Source: Actinomycetota bacterium
GTDB lineage: Bacteria > Actinomycetota > Geothermincolia > Geothermincolales > RBG-13-55-18
DNA length: 54,861 nt
NCBI GenBank assembly: GCA_028697145.1
Contig: JAQVFR010000021.1
Location: 1-54,861 of the forward strand
Direction of reading: 5' to 3'
Shown: one piece after another, positions 13,778-54,861 of the stretch
Position numbering within the stretch: position 1 is the stretch's first letter
Layout of the letters: each line of letters begins with the position of its first letter
Notes under the pieces: generated by a model
Database searches by the model: none
Told to the model about the DNA's origin: nothing
Seen by the model: only the letters and a program-made list of their open reading frames with translations
Position numbers and translations under genes: made by a program

Positions 13778-15478
13778 ATGGCGTTCGAGGATTTCCTGGC
13801 TGTGGCGCGGGGCGAGGACGAGGCCGAGCTGCTTCTCACCGGGGCCAGGATCGTGGACGTGTTCGAGGGGGTCGTGGAGGAGGGCTCGGTCGCGATAAGC
13901 GGCGGCAGGATCGCCGGATTCGGCGAGCGCCCGGCGAAACGCAAGGTTGACCTGGCGGGCGCCTACCTCTGCCCGGGTTTCATCGACGGCCACGTGCATA
14001 TAGAATCCTCCATGGTCAGCTTGCCGGAATACGCGCGCGCAGTGGTCCCGTCCGGCACGACCGCGGTGGTGACCGACTACCACGAGATCGCCAACGTCCT
14101 GGGCATAGAGGGCATCCGGTACATGATGAGCCTGGGTGAGGGGCTTCCCCTGGAGGTGTTCGTGATGCTCCCCTCGTGCGTCCCGGCCACGCCGGTGGAG
14201 ACCGCCGGAGCGGTACTGGAGGCGGAGGACCTCATCCCGCTGCTGCGCGAGGAGAGCGTTATAGGGCTGGGGGAGGTCATGAACTTCCCCGGGGTGATAA
14301 ACGGCGACCCCTCCGTAATGGCCAAGATCGCCGCCTGCGAGGGGCTCCCCGTCGACGGCCATGCGCCGGGCCTCACGGGGAGGGGGCTGGACGCCTATAT
14401 CGCTGCCGGCGTGGAGTCGGACCACGAGTGCGTGACTGCCGACGAGGCGGCGGAAAAACTGGCCAAGGGCATGTTCATATATATCAGGGAGGGCTCAACG
14501 GCCAGGAACATGGAGGCGCTCCTTCCCATCGTCGCCCCCGCGAGCGCGGGGCGCTGCATCTTCGTCGACGACGACCGCCAGCCCAAGGACCTGTTGGACG
14601 AGGGTCACATGGACTCCATCCTGCGCAAGGCGGTCCGGCTCGGGCTGGACCCCATAACCGCCGTGCGCATGGTCACCCTGAACACGGCGCGCCGCTTCGG
14701 CCTGCGCCGGAGGGGCGGTATAGTGCCCGGGTGGCGGGCGGACCTGGCGGTGCTCGAGGACCTCGAGGACTTCAGGGTGCTCCAGGTGTACGCGGGCGGA
14801 GAGTTGGTGGCGTCGGGCGGAAGGCTGGAGATGGATTTGCGCCCGGGAGGGCCTGCGCCCGCGGCGATGAGGATAGCGTGGGAGAAGATCGCGGGGATAG
14901 AGATGCGGGCGGAAGGGAAAGAAATGCTGGTCATCGGGGTCGTGCCGGAACAGATCGTCACCAGGAAGCTGGTCGAGAAGGCCACGGTGAAAAGTGGCCT
15001 GGCGGTCTGCGACCCCTCCCGCGACCTGCTCAAGATCTGCGTGTTCGAGAGGCATAGCGGCACCGGCAACGTCGGCGTGGGATTTATCCGTGGATTCGGG
15101 CTGCGCGAGGGGGCGATCGCCTCCACAGTGGCGCACGACTCGCATAACCTGGTGGTGGTGGGAGCTTCGGACCGGGACGTCATCGCCGCCGCCCGGGCGG
15201 TGGAGGAGATGGGCGGGGGTCAGGTGGTGGTGAGCGGGGGAGGGGTGCTGGCGGAGTTGCCGTTGGACGTGGCGGGCCTGATGTCCTCCCTACCCCTGCA
15301 GGAGGTGAGGGACCGCGTGCAGCAGCTCCAGGAGGCGGCGCGGCGGCTGGGCTGCCCGCTCGGCGACCCCTTCATGGCCCTGTCCTTCATGGCCTTGCCG
15401 GTGATCCCGGAGCTGAAGATGACCGACCGGGGACTGTTCGATACCGGCACGTTCTCCCACGTCCCCCCGTTCGTCTAG
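13778..15478 (+). CDS. ade: Adenine deaminase
   Basis: This 566-residue enzyme converts adenine to hypoxanthine plus ammonia in purine salvage. It has the family's consecutive landmarks: GFIDGHVHIESS (metal ligands), the DYHEIANVLGIEGI block, PSCVPATPVE, GLGEVMNFPGV, DGHAPGLTGRGLDAYI, SDHECVTADEA and IREGSTARN. The late region with the usual Asp reads FVDDDRQPKDL. The C-terminal adenine-deaminase domain is complete. Length matches bacterial Ade (about 550-600). AAGGGAGCG precedes the ATG. Confidence 0.95.
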   Translation: MAFEDFLAVARGEDEAELLLTGARIVDVFEGVVEEGSVAISGGRIAGFGERPAKRKVDLAGAYLCPGFIDGHVHIESSMVSLPEYARAVVPSGTTAVVTDYHEIANVLGIEGIRYMMSLGEGLPLEVFVMLPSCVPATPVETAGAVLEAEDLIPLLREESVIGLGEVMNFPGVINGDPSVMAKIAACEGLPVDGHAPGLTGRGLDAYIAAGVESDHECVTADEAAEKLAKGMFIYIREGSTARNMEALLPIVAPASAGRCIFVDDDRQPKDLLDEGHMDSILRKAVRLGLDPITAVRMVTLNTARRFGLRRRGGIVPGWRADLAVLEDLEDFRVLQVYAGGELVASGGRLEMDLRPGGPAPAAMRIAWEKIAGIEMRAEGKEMLVIGVVPEQIVTRKLVEKATVKSGLAVCDPSRDLLKICVFERHSGTGNVGVGFIRGFGLREGAIASTVAHDSHNLVVVGASDRDVIAAARAVEEMGGGQVVVSGGGVLAELPLDVAGLMSSLPLQEVRDRVQQLQEAARRLGCPLGDPFMALSFMALPVIPELKMTDRGLFDTGTFSHVPPFV

Positions 15479-18782: not shown

Positions 18783-19925
18783 GTGATATCTTTCGAGTTG
18801 AGCGAAGAACAGAAGGCCATCCAGAAAGTGGCCCGTGAGTTCGCGGAAAAAGAGATACGGCCCGTTGCCCCGGAGTACGATGAGGAGGAGAAGTACCCGG
18901 AGCGTTTCGTCGAGACCGCCTTCAAGGCGGGCATGACCTACCTGTACGTCCCCGAGGAATACGGTGGCCAGGGCATGGACTTCCTCACCGCCTGCATCGT
19001 CGGGGAGGAGATCGCCTGGGGGTGCTGCGGTTTCGCCACCATCCTGGGCGCCAACAACCTGGGGACGACCCCGCTGCTGGTGGCGGGCACGGAGGAGCAG
19101 AAGGCGAAGTACTTCGGCGCGCTGACCTCGCGGCCTTCTCTGGCGGCCATGGCCCTCACCGAGCCGGGGGCGGGCTCGGACGCGGCGGGGGTGAAGACCA
19201 CGGCGGTGCGCGATGGGGATGAATATGTCCTCAACGGGACCAAGTGCTTCATCTCCAACGGCGGCATCGCCGACCTCACCACCGTGTTCGCCTCCACCGA
19301 CACATCAGCCGGGGTGCGCGGCCTCTCCTGCTTCCTGGTCCCGAAGGAAAACCCGGGTATCAGCGGGGGCAAGAAGGAGCGCAAGATGGGGGTGCGGGCC
19401 TCCCAGACATCGGAGGTCATCCTCTCCGACTGCCGCGTGCCGGCGGGAGACCTCCTCGGCGAGGAGGGCAAGGGTTTCAAGATCGCCATGATCACCCTGG
19501 ACAAGGCGAGGGTCAGCGTGGCCTGCAACTCGGTGGGCATCGCCAGGGCGGCCATGGAGGCGGCGGTGGAGTACGCCAGGGAGAGGGTGCAGTTCGGCAG
19601 GCCCATCGCCGAGAACCAGGCCGTGCAGTTCATGCTGGCGGACATGGCCATGGAGATAGAAGCGGCCAGGCTCATGTACATGAAGGCGGCCTGGATGGAG
19701 ACGCAGGGGTTGCCCTTCTCCACCGAGGCGGCGTATGCCAAGACCTTCTGCTCGGACATGGCCATGCGCGTGACCACCGACGTGGTGCAGGTCTTCGGGG
19801 GATACGGCTACATGCGGGACTACCCGGTGGAGAAGTACATGCGCGACGCCAAGATAAACCAGATCTGGGACGGCACCAACCAGATCCAGCGCATCGTCAT
19901 GGCTCGTTCCCTGCTTGGCCGCTGA
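18783..19925 (+). CDS. Acyl-CoA dehydrogenase with Asp at the catalytic-base position
   Basis: This 380-residue FAD enzyme introduces a 2,3 double bond in an acyl-CoA and passes electrons to ETF. Family motifs are the N-terminal LSEEQKAIQKVAREFAEKEI, ALTEPGAGSDAAGVKT (FAD/substrate), KCFISNG and YGYMRDYPVEKYMRDAK. Short-chain and medium-chain enzymes use a Glu in an IYEGT motif; here the motif reads IWDGT (Asp363). The alternative base on helix G is also absent, since the helix reads LDKARVS. Asp363 is thus the likely base or the chemistry differs. The GTG start follows GGGAGG. Confidence 0.92.
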   Translation: MISFELSEEQKAIQKVAREFAEKEIRPVAPEYDEEEKYPERFVETAFKAGMTYLYVPEEYGGQGMDFLTACIVGEEIAWGCCGFATILGANNLGTTPLLVAGTEEQKAKYFGALTSRPSLAAMALTEPGAGSDAAGVKTTAVRDGDEYVLNGTKCFISNGGIADLTTVFASTDTSAGVRGLSCFLVPKENPGISGGKKERKMGVRASQTSEVILSDCRVPAGDLLGEEGKGFKIAMITLDKARVSVACNSVGIARAAMEAAVEYARERVQFGRPIAENQAVQFMLADMAMEIEAARLMYMKAAWMETQGLPFSTEAAYAKTFCSDMAMRVTTDVVQVFGGYGYMRDYPVEKYMRDAKINQIWDGTNQIQRIVMARSLLGR

Positions 19926-20057
19926 AACGGGCATGGCGGAGGAGCGGAGAGGCCGCCGGGAACGGGTTTCGTCCCCGGATGCAGGAGGCGTAGTAGGATA
20001 GGATGGAAGGGAGAGGGTTCTCACAAGAGGATCGGATGAGGTAAGAGGAGGTAAGAA

Positions 20058-21212
20058 ATGGACTTCGAGCTCTCTCAGGAACAGAAGGCCTTCTTCAAGG
20101 AGGTAAAGGACTTCGCGGAGAAGGAGATCGCGCCCTTCACCGAGGAGTACGACCGCAACAGCGAGTTCTTCTGGGACGGATGGAAGAAGATGGGAGACAT
20201 GGGGCTGCTCGGGCTGCCCTTTCCCGAGGAATACGGCGGCTCGGGCGCCGGCGCCCTCGATACTGCCATCGCCATGGACGCGTTCTGCGCCGGCGGGGGA
20301 GACGCGGGCGTTTCGCTCTCCTGGGGCGCGCACACCATCATCGGCGCGGTGCCAATCTGGGTGATGGGGAACGAGGAGCAGAAGAAAAAGTACCTTCCTG
20401 CTATCAGCACGGGGGAGAAGATCAGTTGTTTCGGTCTCACCGAGCCGGACGCGGGCTCGGACGCCGCCTCGGTGAAGACCACGGCGGTGAGGGACGGCGA
20501 CGACTACGTCATCAACGGCTCCAAGATGTTCATCACCAACGGTCCCATCTGCGACCTGTGCATCGTGGTGGCGGTCACTGACAAGGAGAAGGGCGCCGCG
20601 GGTATCAGCACCTTCATCGTGGACCGTGAGACCCCCGGCTTCGAGGTCAGCCGCGAGCTGGACAAGATGGGCAACCGCACCTCGCCCACGGCGGAGCTGG
20701 CCTTCAACGACTGCCGCGTGCCGGCCTCCGCCATGCTCGGGGCCGAGGGCGAGGGTTTCTACGGCGTGGGCAAAGCCACCCTGGAGTGGGAGCGCGCCAT
20801 CATGGTGGCGCCCGCCGTCGGGGGCATGGAGTGCAACATCGACCGCTGCATCGAGTACGCCAAGGAGAGGAAGCAGTTCGGGCGCCCCATAGGCAAGTTC
20901 CAGGCGGTGGCCTTCAAGATAGCGGAGATGAAATGCCTGCTCGACGCCTCGCGCCTGCTCGTCTACCGCGTGGCGTGGATGAAGGATCAGGGCATCCCGG
21001 CGATGCTGGAGGCCTGCGTGTGCAAGCTCAGCGTCACCGAGAACGCGGTCAAGGTAGCCAACGAGGCGGTGCAGATCTTCGGCGGTTACGGCTACATCCG
21101 TGAGTACCCGGTGGAGCGCACGCTCAGGGACGCCAAGCTGGGCACCATCGGGGCCGGGACCAGCGAGATACAGAAGATGATCATCAGCCGCCTGCTCATG
21201 GGCAAGTTCTAG
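20058..21212 (+). CDS. Acyl-CoA dehydrogenase (isovaleryl-type active site)
   Basis: This 384-residue flavoprotein dehydrogenase has FGLTEPDAGSDAASVKT, KMFITNG, KQFGRPIGKFQAV and YGYIREYPVERTLRDAKL. The C-terminal base position is Ala366 (IGAGTSEIQ), but Glu245 in LEWERA lies where isovaleryl-CoA and long-chain enzymes carry their base. Branched-chain or similar substrates are therefore more likely than butyryl-CoA. AAGAGGAGGTAAGAA precedes the ATG. It shares the 16-21 kb transcript direction with hbd and the crotonases, with a MoaD-like gene 8 nt downstream. No etfAB genes occur in the window. Confidence 0.93.
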   Translation: MDFELSQEQKAFFKEVKDFAEKEIAPFTEEYDRNSEFFWDGWKKMGDMGLLGLPFPEEYGGSGAGALDTAIAMDAFCAGGGDAGVSLSWGAHTIIGAVPIWVMGNEEQKKKYLPAISTGEKISCFGLTEPDAGSDAASVKTTAVRDGDDYVINGSKMFITNGPICDLCIVVAVTDKEKGAAGISTFIVDRETPGFEVSRELDKMGNRTSPTAELAFNDCRVPASAMLGAEGEGFYGVGKATLEWERAIMVAPAVGGMECNIDRCIEYAKERKQFGRPIGKFQAVAFKIAEMKCLLDASRLLVYRVAWMKDQGIPAMLEACVCKLSVTENAVKVANEAVQIFGGYGYIREYPVERTLRDAKLGTIGAGTSEIQKMIISRLLMGKF

Positions 21213-49190: not shown

Positions 49191-49230
49191 CAGGTCTTGT
49201 TTTCTGCATACCGCGGTATGTTGCCTGTTG
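49191..49230 (-). repeat. 40-nt dispersed palindromic repeat, copy 2
   Basis: This is the reverse complement of 83-122 with one mismatch, centred on the same palindrome CATACCGCGGTATG. It lies in the gap between the GH57 and GT4 genes and ends 17 nt from the GH57 stop codon. Beyond the core, similarity decays apart from a shared ACCGAATG on the outer side. Confidence 0.75.
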
Positions 49231-49246
49231 GGCAGACGGGTGCGTG

Positions 49247-52338: not shown

Positions 52339-53661
52339 TCAGTCCTCGTCCTCTTCCTCCTCGGTTATCTCCTCGAGGTAGTCGTCAACCAGTCCGGAGA
52401 CGTGTATGGCGGAGTTGAAGGCGGTGTCCCCGCCGGTGCCCTCCGCACGGGTAGTGTCCCCGCAGATGAAGAAGTTGTCGAGGGAGGGGATGGTGAAATC
52501 GGGACGGTCGGCCCGCGTCTGGCCGGGACGCGGGAGGAAGCCGTCTACCATGGAGAGCCTGAGGGTGCGCTCCCAGTCCACGGCATCCCAGATGCCGGGG
52601 AACATCTCGCCGAGCACTCCCCTCAGTCGCTGTTCCTCGCGCCCCATCTTATCGGCGTTCTTCACCCAGGGAAGGGGAAGCGGGTAGTACCAGGAAAGCA
52701 GCTGACGGCCCGCGGGCGCCATTCCCGGGTCTATATTGGAGGTGAACTGCCCCATGCTCAGGGGCTCGGAGGTCACCAGGAGCCCGTTCTTGTCCGTGAC
52801 CGGCTCCTTGAGGCCGACGTCCAGGGATATCCCGGCGGTGGGCACGAGCTCCCGCGCTCTCTTCGCGAACTTGATGGGGAGGTCCTTTCCCCCGAAGAGG
52901 TCGGGGAGGTCCTGGACCGGCATAGCGCTTACCACCGCGTAGGCGGTATAGGAGGACGTCTCCGTTTTCACCTGGTTTACCAGGCCTTTCTTCAGCATCA
53001 GCCGTGTGACCTTGTTGCCCGTCATGATCTGGCCGTTCTTCTCCAGTTCCTCCCGCAGGCCGCCGATGATGCTGGGAGTGCCACCCCTCGGGTATCCAAC
53101 TTTCACCTTGGAGCGCAGGGCTTTCTTCAGATAGGCGGCCAGCTCACCGGCGGACGCGTTGGCCGGTTCGGGCGCGATTATGCCGATGCCGGAGATAACG
53201 CGCAGGATCTCCAGCGTCTCCTGCGACTTGCAGCTGGCCGTCAGGTCCTCGAGGGAGAGCTGATACTTCTTCGCCGGATTTCCCGCGACCAGCTTGACCA
53301 GGTAGCGCGCGGCGCTGATCTTCGCCGGCAGGGGGAGCATGGAGGACCTGAAGATCTTCCCCACGTTGTTGGGCAGCGGCACAAATCCGCCCTCGCGCCA
53401 TAGCTCCGGCTCGCCGGGCGCGATGAACTCCAGTTCGCGGCCGAGGCGCCGGAAGACGGCGGCGGCGGCGCCGTCCGATGCGTTGCGGTTGGCGTGCAGG
53501 CCGTATTCCACGATATATCCGTCCTTCTCCATGAATCCGGCCCTGCCCCCCAGGGACCTGGACTTCTCCAGCAGAAGGACCTCGTATCCCCTGTGTGCCA
53601 GCAGGGCTCCCGCCGAGAGTCCGGCATATCCACCACCGATGACGATGACGTCGCAGTCCAT
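52339..53661 (-). CDS. FAD-dependent oxidoreductase, phytoene desaturase-like
   Basis: This 440-residue flavoprotein opens with MDCDVIVIGGGYAGLSAGAL and LLLEKSRSLGGRAGF, the FAD-binding motifs of the crtI-like superfamily, and closes with LDNFFICGDTTRAEGTGGDT. The last residues are strongly acidic (ITEEEEDED). It is longer than a bare binding domain and has a substrate domain, so an enzyme acting on isoprenoid or similar hydrophobic compounds is possible; no crt genes are nearby. The ATG at 53661 has AAGGGG upstream; the frame opens earlier at 53802 without support. Confidence 0.85.
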   Translation of the reverse strand: MDCDVIVIGGGYAGLSAGALLAHRGYEVLLLEKSRSLGGRAGFMEKDGYIVEYGLHANRNASDGAAAAVFRRLGRELEFIAPGEPELWREGGFVPLPNNVGKIFRSSMLPLPAKISAARYLVKLVAGNPAKKYQLSLEDLTASCKSQETLEILRVISGIGIIAPEPANASAGELAAYLKKALRSKVKVGYPRGGTPSIIGGLREELEKNGQIMTGNKVTRLMLKKGLVNQVKTETSSYTAYAVVSAMPVQDLPDLFGGKDLPIKFAKRARELVPTAGISLDVGLKEPVTDKNGLLVTSEPLSMGQFTSNIDPGMAPAGRQLLSWYYPLPLPWVKNADKMGREEQRLRGVLGEMFPGIWDAVDWERTLRLSMVDGFLPRPGQTRADRPDFTIPSLDNFFICGDTTRAEGTGGDTAFNSAIHVSGLVDDYLEEITEEEEDED

Positions 53662-54066
53662 GTGTTTCCCCTTTTCCCTTCGGCCATCTCGGGCTGATTT
53701 CTTCAGGCCGTTCGCAGGCGGCCGGAAGGCCCGTCGTACGAAGAATATTAAACCACATTTCCCGCCGTATGAGGCCCGTTCGTCCACTCCCCCACTATCC
53801 ATAATACTCTTGCGAGGCTCATGCTTTGCGTTTCGCGCTTGCGGCGCGAAAAGTCAAGACCGAGCCCTAATCCACGCATCAGGGCGGAGCGACGCGTAAG
53901 CGCTGTGTGCCAGGATTTATCCCGGTACCGATCCCCATTACCTCGAGTTCGACGTTAATGTTCAGCACCGTGCCATCGCCATGCCGTATCGTTGGCTAGA
54001 CGGTCACACGGCTGTTAAAGTAACAAATAGGCAACGGCCGCCGACAGGAGAGAGGAGAACCATCGC
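53662..54066. promoter_or_regulatory. Divergent intergenic region with repeat and promoter-like pair
   Basis: This 405-nt spacer holds repeat copy A (listed separately) and, on the plus strand, TTGGCT (53992-53997) and TAAAGT (54016-54021) 18 nt apart, a weak promoter candidate for the hydrolase gene at 54067. An AT-rich patch at 53743-53758 could serve the minus-strand FAD gene. Nothing else is recognisable. Confidence 0.3.
53824..53925 (+). repeat. ~100-nt direct repeat, copy A
   Basis: Similar in order to copy B: TTTGCGT, then CAAGACCGAGCC, AGCGACGCG, AAGCGCTG and CAGGATTTATCC. Copy A additionally has an 8-bp hairpin (TTTCGCGC/GCGCGAAA, 53831-53851). CAAGACC is also part of the 40-nt repeat, so the families may be related. 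Confidence 0.65.
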
Positions 54067-54711
54067 GTGCGCAAGGAACGGGTGGGTTTCTATGCCGACT
54101 GCGTGGAGCCGATCAGGCTCGAGGGCATACTCGAGATGCCCGAGAAGCCCGAACCGCCCCCGGCGTGCATACTCTGTCACCCCCATCCCATCGGCGGCGG
54201 TTCCATGTACGTGCCGCTGCTCGAGGTGATGGCGCGGAGACTGGCAGAAAGCGGATGGGCGTGCCTTCGCTTCAACTTTCGCGGCGTGGGTCTCAGTAGC
54301 GGCGTACCGACGGGGGGGCTTTGCGAAGTAGAGGACGTCGAGGGAGCGTATCGCTTTCTCGCCGACAGGGAAGATGTCGATTGCGGGGAACTGGCCCTGG
54401 CGGGGTGGTCGTTCGGCGCATGGATCGGACTGAGGTGGGCGGTGGGCAGCGGTAACGTGAGCAGGATAGCCCTGGTCAGCCCCCCCATGGTGGGGTTCGA
54501 TTTCTTCTATTTTCTCGACGCCGACGAAGCAGTGCCGCCCGCCGACGCGCTTATCGTCAGCGGCGGTCGCGACCAGTTCAATGACCCGGATAAATTGCGC
54601 AGGCTATCATCTCGACTTGGGGCCGAACTGCGCATCCTGGAAGACGTAGACCACTTCCTCTTCGGCCACGAGACGGAAGTCGCCGGGATAATCGCCGACC
54701 ACTGGCAATAA
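54067..54711 (+). CDS. Alpha/beta hydrolase
   Basis: This 214-residue protein has the nucleophile elbow GWSFG (Ser115), Asp169 in SGGRDQFND and His196 in DVDHFLFG, giving a complete catalytic triad. CHPHPIGGGSM and FNFRGVGLSSG are typical of the small dienelactone hydrolase/YheT-like group. Substrate unknown. The GTG start follows GAGAGGAGAA at about 8 nt. It is flanked on both sides by the ~100-nt direct repeats. Confidence 0.88.
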   Translation: MRKERVGFYADCVEPIRLEGILEMPEKPEPPPACILCHPHPIGGGSMYVPLLEVMARRLAESGWACLRFNFRGVGLSSGVPTGGLCEVEDVEGAYRFLADREDVDCGELALAGWSFGAWIGLRWAVGSGNVSRIALVSPPMVGFDFFYFLDADEAVPPADALIVSGGRDQFNDPDKLRRLSSRLGAELRILEDVDHFLFGHETEVAGIIADHWQ

Positions 54712-54761
54712 CCCCCCCGCCTGCCCACCCCCGCCCTCTCCATAATCCGCCACACGGGCTC

Positions 54762-54860
54762 GGTTTTGCGTCCGAGCCGCAGGCGAGGAATGACAAGACC
54801 GAGCCTTGCCCACCCCCAAGGCCAGCGACGCGAAGCGCTGCGGGACAGGATTTATCCTGG
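54762..54860 (+). repeat. ~100-nt direct repeat, copy B
   Basis: Second copy in the same orientation, about 938 nt after copy A, ending at the window edge. A GGCTCGG-TTTTGCGT-CCGAGCC hairpin lies at its left side. The best-conserved blocks are CAAGACCGAGCC, AGCGACGCG, AAGCGCTG and CAGGATTTATCC. Confidence 0.65.
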
Positions 54861-54861
54861 C

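Follow-up and report, generated by a model that had tools for sequence, protein, structure and literature searches.

The window analysed here comprises 54,861 nucleotides of an Actinomycetota bacterium (assembly GCA_028697145.1, contig JAQVFR010000021.1, positions 1 to 54,861) and carries, close to its right-hand end, two divergently oriented genes. The first, at 52339-53661 on the minus strand, encodes an FAD-dependent oxidoreductase of the amine-oxidase type, which served as the synteny anchor; its start was set from relatives, the mechanical open reading frame extending to 53802. The second, at 54067-54711 on the plus strand, has a GTG start and encodes an alpha/beta hydrolase of 214 amino acids that matches Pfam Abhydrolase_6 and Abhydrolase_1 above cut-off. 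Two copies of a dispersed repeat, both on the plus strand, accompany these genes. Copy A (53816-53955), recognized from blastn matches across the bacterium's own genome, alignments and a comparison of the spacer with relatives, occupies the divergent spacer between the two genes. Copy B (54721-54861) starts some 10 nt past the stop codon of the hydrolase gene and is cut short by the contig end, at the end of its beta hairpin.

Copies A and B lie in the same orientation and are 76% identical across 83 nt. Their alignment scores 50.9 bits; among 200 dinucleotide-preserving shuffles of A, the highest score was 25.6 bits. Since they are only 76% identical over this length, they are not a recent pair. 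The earlier note had described direct repeats of about 100 nt bracketing a single hydrolase gene; the repeats are real and bracket the gene as it said, but the unit is longer than 100 nt, copy A matching other copies over 53816-53955. The blocks named in that note also recur in the same order in both copies, namely CAAGACCGAGCC at 53855-53866 and 54794-54805 and CAGGATTTATCC at 53911-53922 and 54846-54857, with AGCGACGCG and AAGCGCTG between them in A as in B.

In order, copy A consists of an alpha hairpin, a AGCGACGCG..AGCGCTG block, a beta hairpin, CCATTACCT and the start of a tail. Its alpha hairpin (53816-53866, plus strand) runs from GGCTC to CAAGACCGAGCC around the inner stem TTTCGCGC/GGCGCGAAA; the evidence for it is the sequence, pair counts on an alignment of 16 chosen copies (A1) and a weak single-strand fold of A. 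The beta hairpin (53907-53928, plus strand) reads GTGCCAGGA TTTA TCCCGGTAC, with one A-C mismatch and one G-T pair, and CCATTACCT, the conserved beginning of the tail after the hairpins, follows at 53935-53943 (plus strand). A possible lead of copy A at 53784-53805 (plus strand) bears a weak likeness to the lead of copy B, scoring 22.9 bits, below the best shuffle. In copy B, the alpha hairpin (54757-54805, plus strand) is formed by GGCTCGGTTTTG, 25 nt and CAAGACCGAGCC, with 12 pairs, and the beta hairpin (54843-54861, plus strand), GGACAGGATTTATCCTGGC, is cut by the contig end.

Besides A and B, the window contains two further pieces of the family. The opposite contig end (1-127, plus strand) holds the 3' part of another copy, with CCATTACCT at 10-18 and a delta end at 35-127 that finishes in CAAGACCTGACCCC. 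A 41-nt piece of delta end at 49191-49231 on the minus strand is 98% complementary to 82-122; it stands alone between two genes, which we take from their translations to be glycosyltransferase-like and GH57-like. Two other sites in the window drew attention. At 1416-2248, three tandem 315-nt units, 66-72% alike, probably represent repeated protein domains, and the reading frame before them, at the contig start, is presumably amidase-like. At 19155-20759, two neighbouring paralogous stretches lie 1281 nt apart, and we take them for acyl-CoA dehydrogenase genes.

The repeat is widely dispersed in its own genome (2.98 Mb in 52 contigs). With blastn at E<=1e-5, copy A as a query found 21 places, A and B included, and copy B found at least 26 with 40 of its 58 candidates scored; the matches of both merge into at least 24 places. 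When a longer copy was added as a third query (40 of 110 candidates scored), the number of merged places rose to at least 46, part of which consist of the tail alone or the delta end alone. For this merging, the A and B matches at E<=1e-5 and all 52 matches of the longer copy were joined at 150 nt. Thus, further copies of the repeats do occur throughout the genome, and a palindromic unit with mostly preserved pairing is present in many dispersed places. A and B are two such copies, members of a scattered non-coding repeat family built of several hairpins. For collecting copies with both hairpins, a regular-expression search yielded only 4 and was replaced by anchoring on GGATTTATCC, which gave 19 rows; one of these, at 14968-15124 of the window, was dropped as a likely chance match because no other part of the repeat surrounds it.

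The longest copies reveal the full anatomy of the family, which comprises the alpha hairpin, the AGCGACGCG block, the beta hairpin, a tail of about 100 nt starting from CCATTACCT, and a delta end, GGTATGCAAAAAACAAGACCTGACCCC. The delta end is reached by the longest copies, at C43 and C15, and also by the copy at C50, which lacks the alpha hairpin. In the form found in copy B, the alpha hairpin reads GGCTCGGTTTTG-N25-CAAGACCGAGCC and is followed by the AGCGACGCG..AGCGCTG block. Most copies have a beta hairpin of the form GGGCCAGGA-TTTA-TCCTGGCCC, with the foot GGGYCAGG/CCTGRCCC. In several copies (e.g., C46, C32 and C36), an extra hairpin-like module, GGGGTCTGGTCTTGCG...CAAGACCTGAC, followed by CCATTACCT, occurs instead or additionally, and the family is therefore a mosaic.

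Of 38 relatives searched with copy B, two had a match, both congeners; the whole query was covered by a single match, in G002, the others corresponding to part of the alpha hairpin. The longer copy matched three of 30 relatives in the class, among them G004 and G012 by the delta end only; matches outside the genus were confined to the delta end in both searches (38 relatives with copy B, 30 with the longer copy). G012 has four delta-end matches, two of which flank a RAYT gene. G004 has eight delta-end matches and no Y1_Tnp match in a genome that is 78% complete; a lost transposase or an assembly gap could account for this combination.

Pairing in the hairpins was assessed on alignment A1 and on a second alignment of 19 chosen copies (A2). 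Across the alpha and beta hairpins of the 16 copies, 92.5% of 307 cells are paired, a level reached by none of 500 shuffled controls (mean 89.4) and far from the 30-58% obtained when the structure was slid along the alignment. Two-sided changes number eight cells, against a shuffled mean of 2.9 (0/500 reach eight) and at most two in slid controls. Two further measures are weaker: five pairs show a change on both sides, a number that 14/500 shuffles also reach, and there are nine further pair types, which 122/500 reach. For the beta hairpin alone, with 18 distinct sequences, 95.6% of 160 cells are paired, and one pair reads GC in 13 of 17 sequences and UA in the other 4; its two pairs with a two-sided change (139/500 shuffles) and four further pair types (385/500) do not stand out. 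Copy B supplied the structure and the copies are related to one another, so these counts represent few independent covariation events. Folding as a single strand gave an unexceptional result for copy A (z -0.96, 26 of 200 shuffles folding equally well) and modest ones for copy B (z -1.87) and the first delta end of the window (z -2.37), and strong single-strand folding was dropped as an argument.

Hairpins with mostly preserved pairing could also be expected if the repeats, whatever their origin, were kept as RNA or DNA elements serving neighbouring genes, for example as terminators, for protection of mRNA ends or for protein binding. The position of copy B about 10 nt behind the hydrolase stop would suit such a role, and REPs are reported to lie predominantly downstream of coding regions, according to the available text of PMC3733652. 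Against it, copy A stands upstream of two divergent genes and folds unexceptionally, and among the relatives searched, only the delta end has matches beyond the genus. In addition, the whole window is free of Rfam matches at gathering score, which ruled out a known RNA family, and four loci with copies gave only two sub-threshold matches (Xoo2 and isrD, E 0.095 and 0.13), taken as chance. A regulatory function is therefore an unlikely reason for the presence of these repeats.

The location of copy B raises a different concern. Of the 46 repeat places, at least 13 are no more than 60 nt away from a contig end, including both ends of the window; C20, C33 and C49 were entered without a length, and copies at their far ends would escape this count. 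Copy B breaks off right at the contig end, and 122 nt of it are 100% identical to the copy at C46, as would be seen if reads from other copies had extended the contig, in which case B might not lie beside the hydrolase at all. The comparison with the full copy at C43, to which copy B is 92% identical, speaks for a genuine position, because this match starts about 10 nt past the hydrolase stop with no break in the sequence. Copy A, which lies inside the contig, would be unaffected. We consider an assembly effect at copy B quite improbable. The repeat places at contig ends, in turn, offer a reason for the break points of this draft genome.

In protein searches, the hydrolase was found in 28 of 38 relatives and in 14/14 other genomes of the family, and the divergent, head-to-head order of the FAD and hydrolase genes was present in all 12 family loci compared (12 of the 14 other genomes, G008 and G010 being left out). 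Around these 12 loci, an isochorismatase gene was found in all, a methyltransferase gene in 11 and a GH57 gene in six within the stretches examined. In the two order-level loci compared (G016 and G017), the FAD gene does not directly adjoin the hydrolase gene. The repeat has no more than chance-level matches in the FAD-hydrolase spacer of these loci: across 14 loci of relatives, the best match to it was 22 nt long (E 0.003) and lay outside that spacer, which was touched by two matches 17-18 nt in length, at E 0.46 and E 0.57. The earlier note had named the gene's occurrence in all close relatives without the repeats, with repeats scattered randomly elsewhere, as evidence against its own suggestion, and this is the situation observed at the loci of 12 of the 14 other family genomes. 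The hydrolase is an ordinary inherited gene, conserved in the family and lying outside the repeat element.

The distance from the anchor to the hydrolase start is 309 nt here, against 103 nt in G001 and 130 nt in G002, both congeners, and 152 nt in G009 and 83 nt in G003; it is 348, 275 and 779 nt in G005, G006 and G012, which have no convincing repeat match, and the anchor was not found in three more relatives. Spacer length is not diagnostic, as G005, G006 and G012 show. Outside the anchors, the spacer is not conserved in relatives and is too diverged for an exact empty site or target duplication to be read. In G001 and G002, GTGCCAGGTCTT directly follows the hydrolase gene, roughly where copy B lies here, and in G002 it is accompanied by a matching AAGACCTGGCAC; it is as if the site downstream of the hydrolase repeatedly gained such hairpins.

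On these grounds, a mobile cassette, or a gene inserted between repeats, which the earlier note had listed among its options for two same-orientation copies bracketing the hydrolase, is highly improbable and was rejected on the conserved FAD-hydrolase synteny (14/14 family genomes, 12/12 loci in divergent order, chance-level repeat matches in the spacers). The 76% identity of A and B over 83 nt also speaks against it, as do the inverted ends of the RAYT genes in this genome, seen in a search for inverted repeats.

The family can be tied by sequence to a resident transposase. The genome has three Y1_Tnp genes, at C16, C4 and C41. The protein from C16 passes the NCBIfam model for the REP-associated tyrosine transposase (NF047646) with 83.9 bits at a cut-off of 80, and those from C4 and C41 match it below the cut-off. 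Exact inverted repeats around these genes were sought without using any motif and for inverted ends only, and each of the three is flanked by such repeats of 30-35 nt, the best of which contains GGGGTCA at 3/3 loci. Among 19 RAYT loci of relatives, a subset of a longer match list in which some loci are cut by contig ends, the GGGGTCA repeat was best at nine; at the remaining 10, a different repeat was best or no repeat was seen. The genome thus holds RAYT-like genes with long flanking inverted repeats, as TIRYTs have. Their TIRs carry the motif GGGGWSAS, which appears as GGGGTCAG in the TIRs of C16 and C4 and as its complement at the delta end; the C41 TIR reads GGGGTCAA, an incomplete fit.

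The identity between TIR and repeat can be read directly from the alignments. The right TIR of C16 is identical at 27/27 positions to the delta end, both in the window and in C43, and the left TIR agrees at 97% with the delta end of each of the four copies tested, over 37-38 nt. Dispersed copies therefore share sequence with a transposase TIR, and full copies join the alpha and beta hairpins to this delta end. Copies A and B themselves contain neither the GGGGWSAS motif nor a delta end. Their alpha foot is GGCTC or GGCTCGG, and their beta foot is GTGCCAGG in A and GGACAGG in B, a sister copy (C26d) having GGGGTCAGGATTTATCCTGACCCC. As judged from sequence, the link of A and B to the RAYT TIR runs via the longer copies.

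The TIR end is not confined to this genome. A 22-mer of the delta end, ATGCAAAAAACAAGACCTGACC, was found in 39 stretches of other genomes, ranging from Actinomycetota and Aminicenantes through to Vibrio halioticoli. A RAYT homologue lies within 200 nt of the motif in seven of these 39 loci and is absent from the examined stretch in 32. In one of the seven, from 'Candidatus Solincola daggyaiensis', the RAYT is 82% identical to that of C16 and has the motif at both ends. An identical 22-nt RAYT TIR end across several phyla suggests horizontal spread or a strong constraint on the end sequence.

RAYT and TIRYT transposases are HUH Y1 enzymes of the IS200/IS605 superfamily. Taken together, the evidence makes it likely that A and B are dispersed hairpin repeats tied to RAYT/TIRYT TIRs, that they were mobilized in trans, and that the hydrolase lies between them by coincidence. 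Their spread would probably be the work of a resident transposase. In such a scheme, the RAYT would recognize a hairpin or an end as single-stranded DNA and would copy or move the recognized repeat to new sites in trans. Gene conversion and partial copying could then give rise to mosaic and truncated copies, and alpha-beta pieces such as A and B may have spread as parts of longer copies. In what the enzyme does, in the single-stranded nature of the intermediates and in what would move as a unit, this scheme follows the IS200/IS605 superfamily (see also PMC2817692). A more specific proposal is offered tentatively, and we would sooner doubt it than rely on it: a TIR-type RAYT might drive a long composite element that is itself non-autonomous. 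Several different hairpins and the conserved tail of about 100 nt would move together in it, and just one of its ends would be a borrowed TIR. Such an element would stand between a REP mosaic and a MITE and would have expanded in one lineage of the genus.

From the perspective of annotation, the locus settles a tempting misreading, as a gene between two repeats is here not a cassette. It also extends the TIR branch of REP/RAYT systems by a further repeat family, one with a sequence link to a single resident transposase. This branch (TIRtron/TIRYT) had few matches by name in the literature, and the TIR end described here recurs across phyla.

Several known systems invite comparison. Palindrome-associated transposable elements (PATEs) and other MITEs derived from IS200/IS605 are non-autonomous elements with hairpin ends, whose movement is attributed to a Y1 transposase, and the ends of PATEs follow IS200/IS605 elements rather than RAYT TIRs. 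The present repeats would resemble them as non-autonomous hairpin elements and differ from them in the RAYT-TIR end of the longest copies. REPs, BIMEs and their RAYTs have been described as dispersed palindromes, composites of these, and a Y1 transposase gene with inverted flanking copies (PMC2817692). The family shares with them dispersed palindromes, composite arrangements and an associated Y1 transposase gene. However, its units exceed the 20-40 nt of REP palindromes, and inspection by eye of the 16 and 19 aligned copies found neither GTAG nor GTGG nor CGTC as a tag next to either hairpin. The conserved flank is instead CCATTACCT (AGGTAATGG on the other strand), about 7 nt from the beta foot. 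The earlier suggestion of dispersed REP-like DNA therefore holds for the dozens of copies, the hairpins and the RAYT link through the longest copies, but not for the GTAG/CGTC tag. Because A and B have neither GGGGWSAS nor a GTAG tag, they were filed in a TIR-linked composite family and not as REPs.

In a 2018 survey of the HuH superfamily (PMC6006769), 20 of 26 described TIRYTs are reported to fall into TnpA-REP subclass 2.1, every one with a helix-turn-helix domain at its C-terminus. In comparison, the protein from C4 weakly matches the C-terminal part of DnaA, at 24 bits and far below cut-off, and those from C16 and C41 have no DnaA match. In the text of the literature searched, figures excluded, the two exact TIR strings had no match, and GGGGWSAS occurred only in PMC3733652. 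There, Di Nocera et al. (2013) describe TIRYTs, or 'TIRtrons', as RAYT-like genes between long TIRs that share GGGGWSAS, and TIR families that are moderately abundant, with extra copies that are dispersed and partly clustered (PMC3733652, available text). The family reported here differs from those TIR families in that its longest copies are mosaics of alpha, beta, tail and delta end, and in that the TIR motif is missing from many copies, among them A and B. It has in common with them a RAYT-like gene with GGGGWSAS TIRs (GGGGTCAG in C16 and C4) and dispersed copies. By its delta end and the resident transposases, the repeat family fits the TIR repeats of RAYT/TIRYT transposases as its closest known kind.
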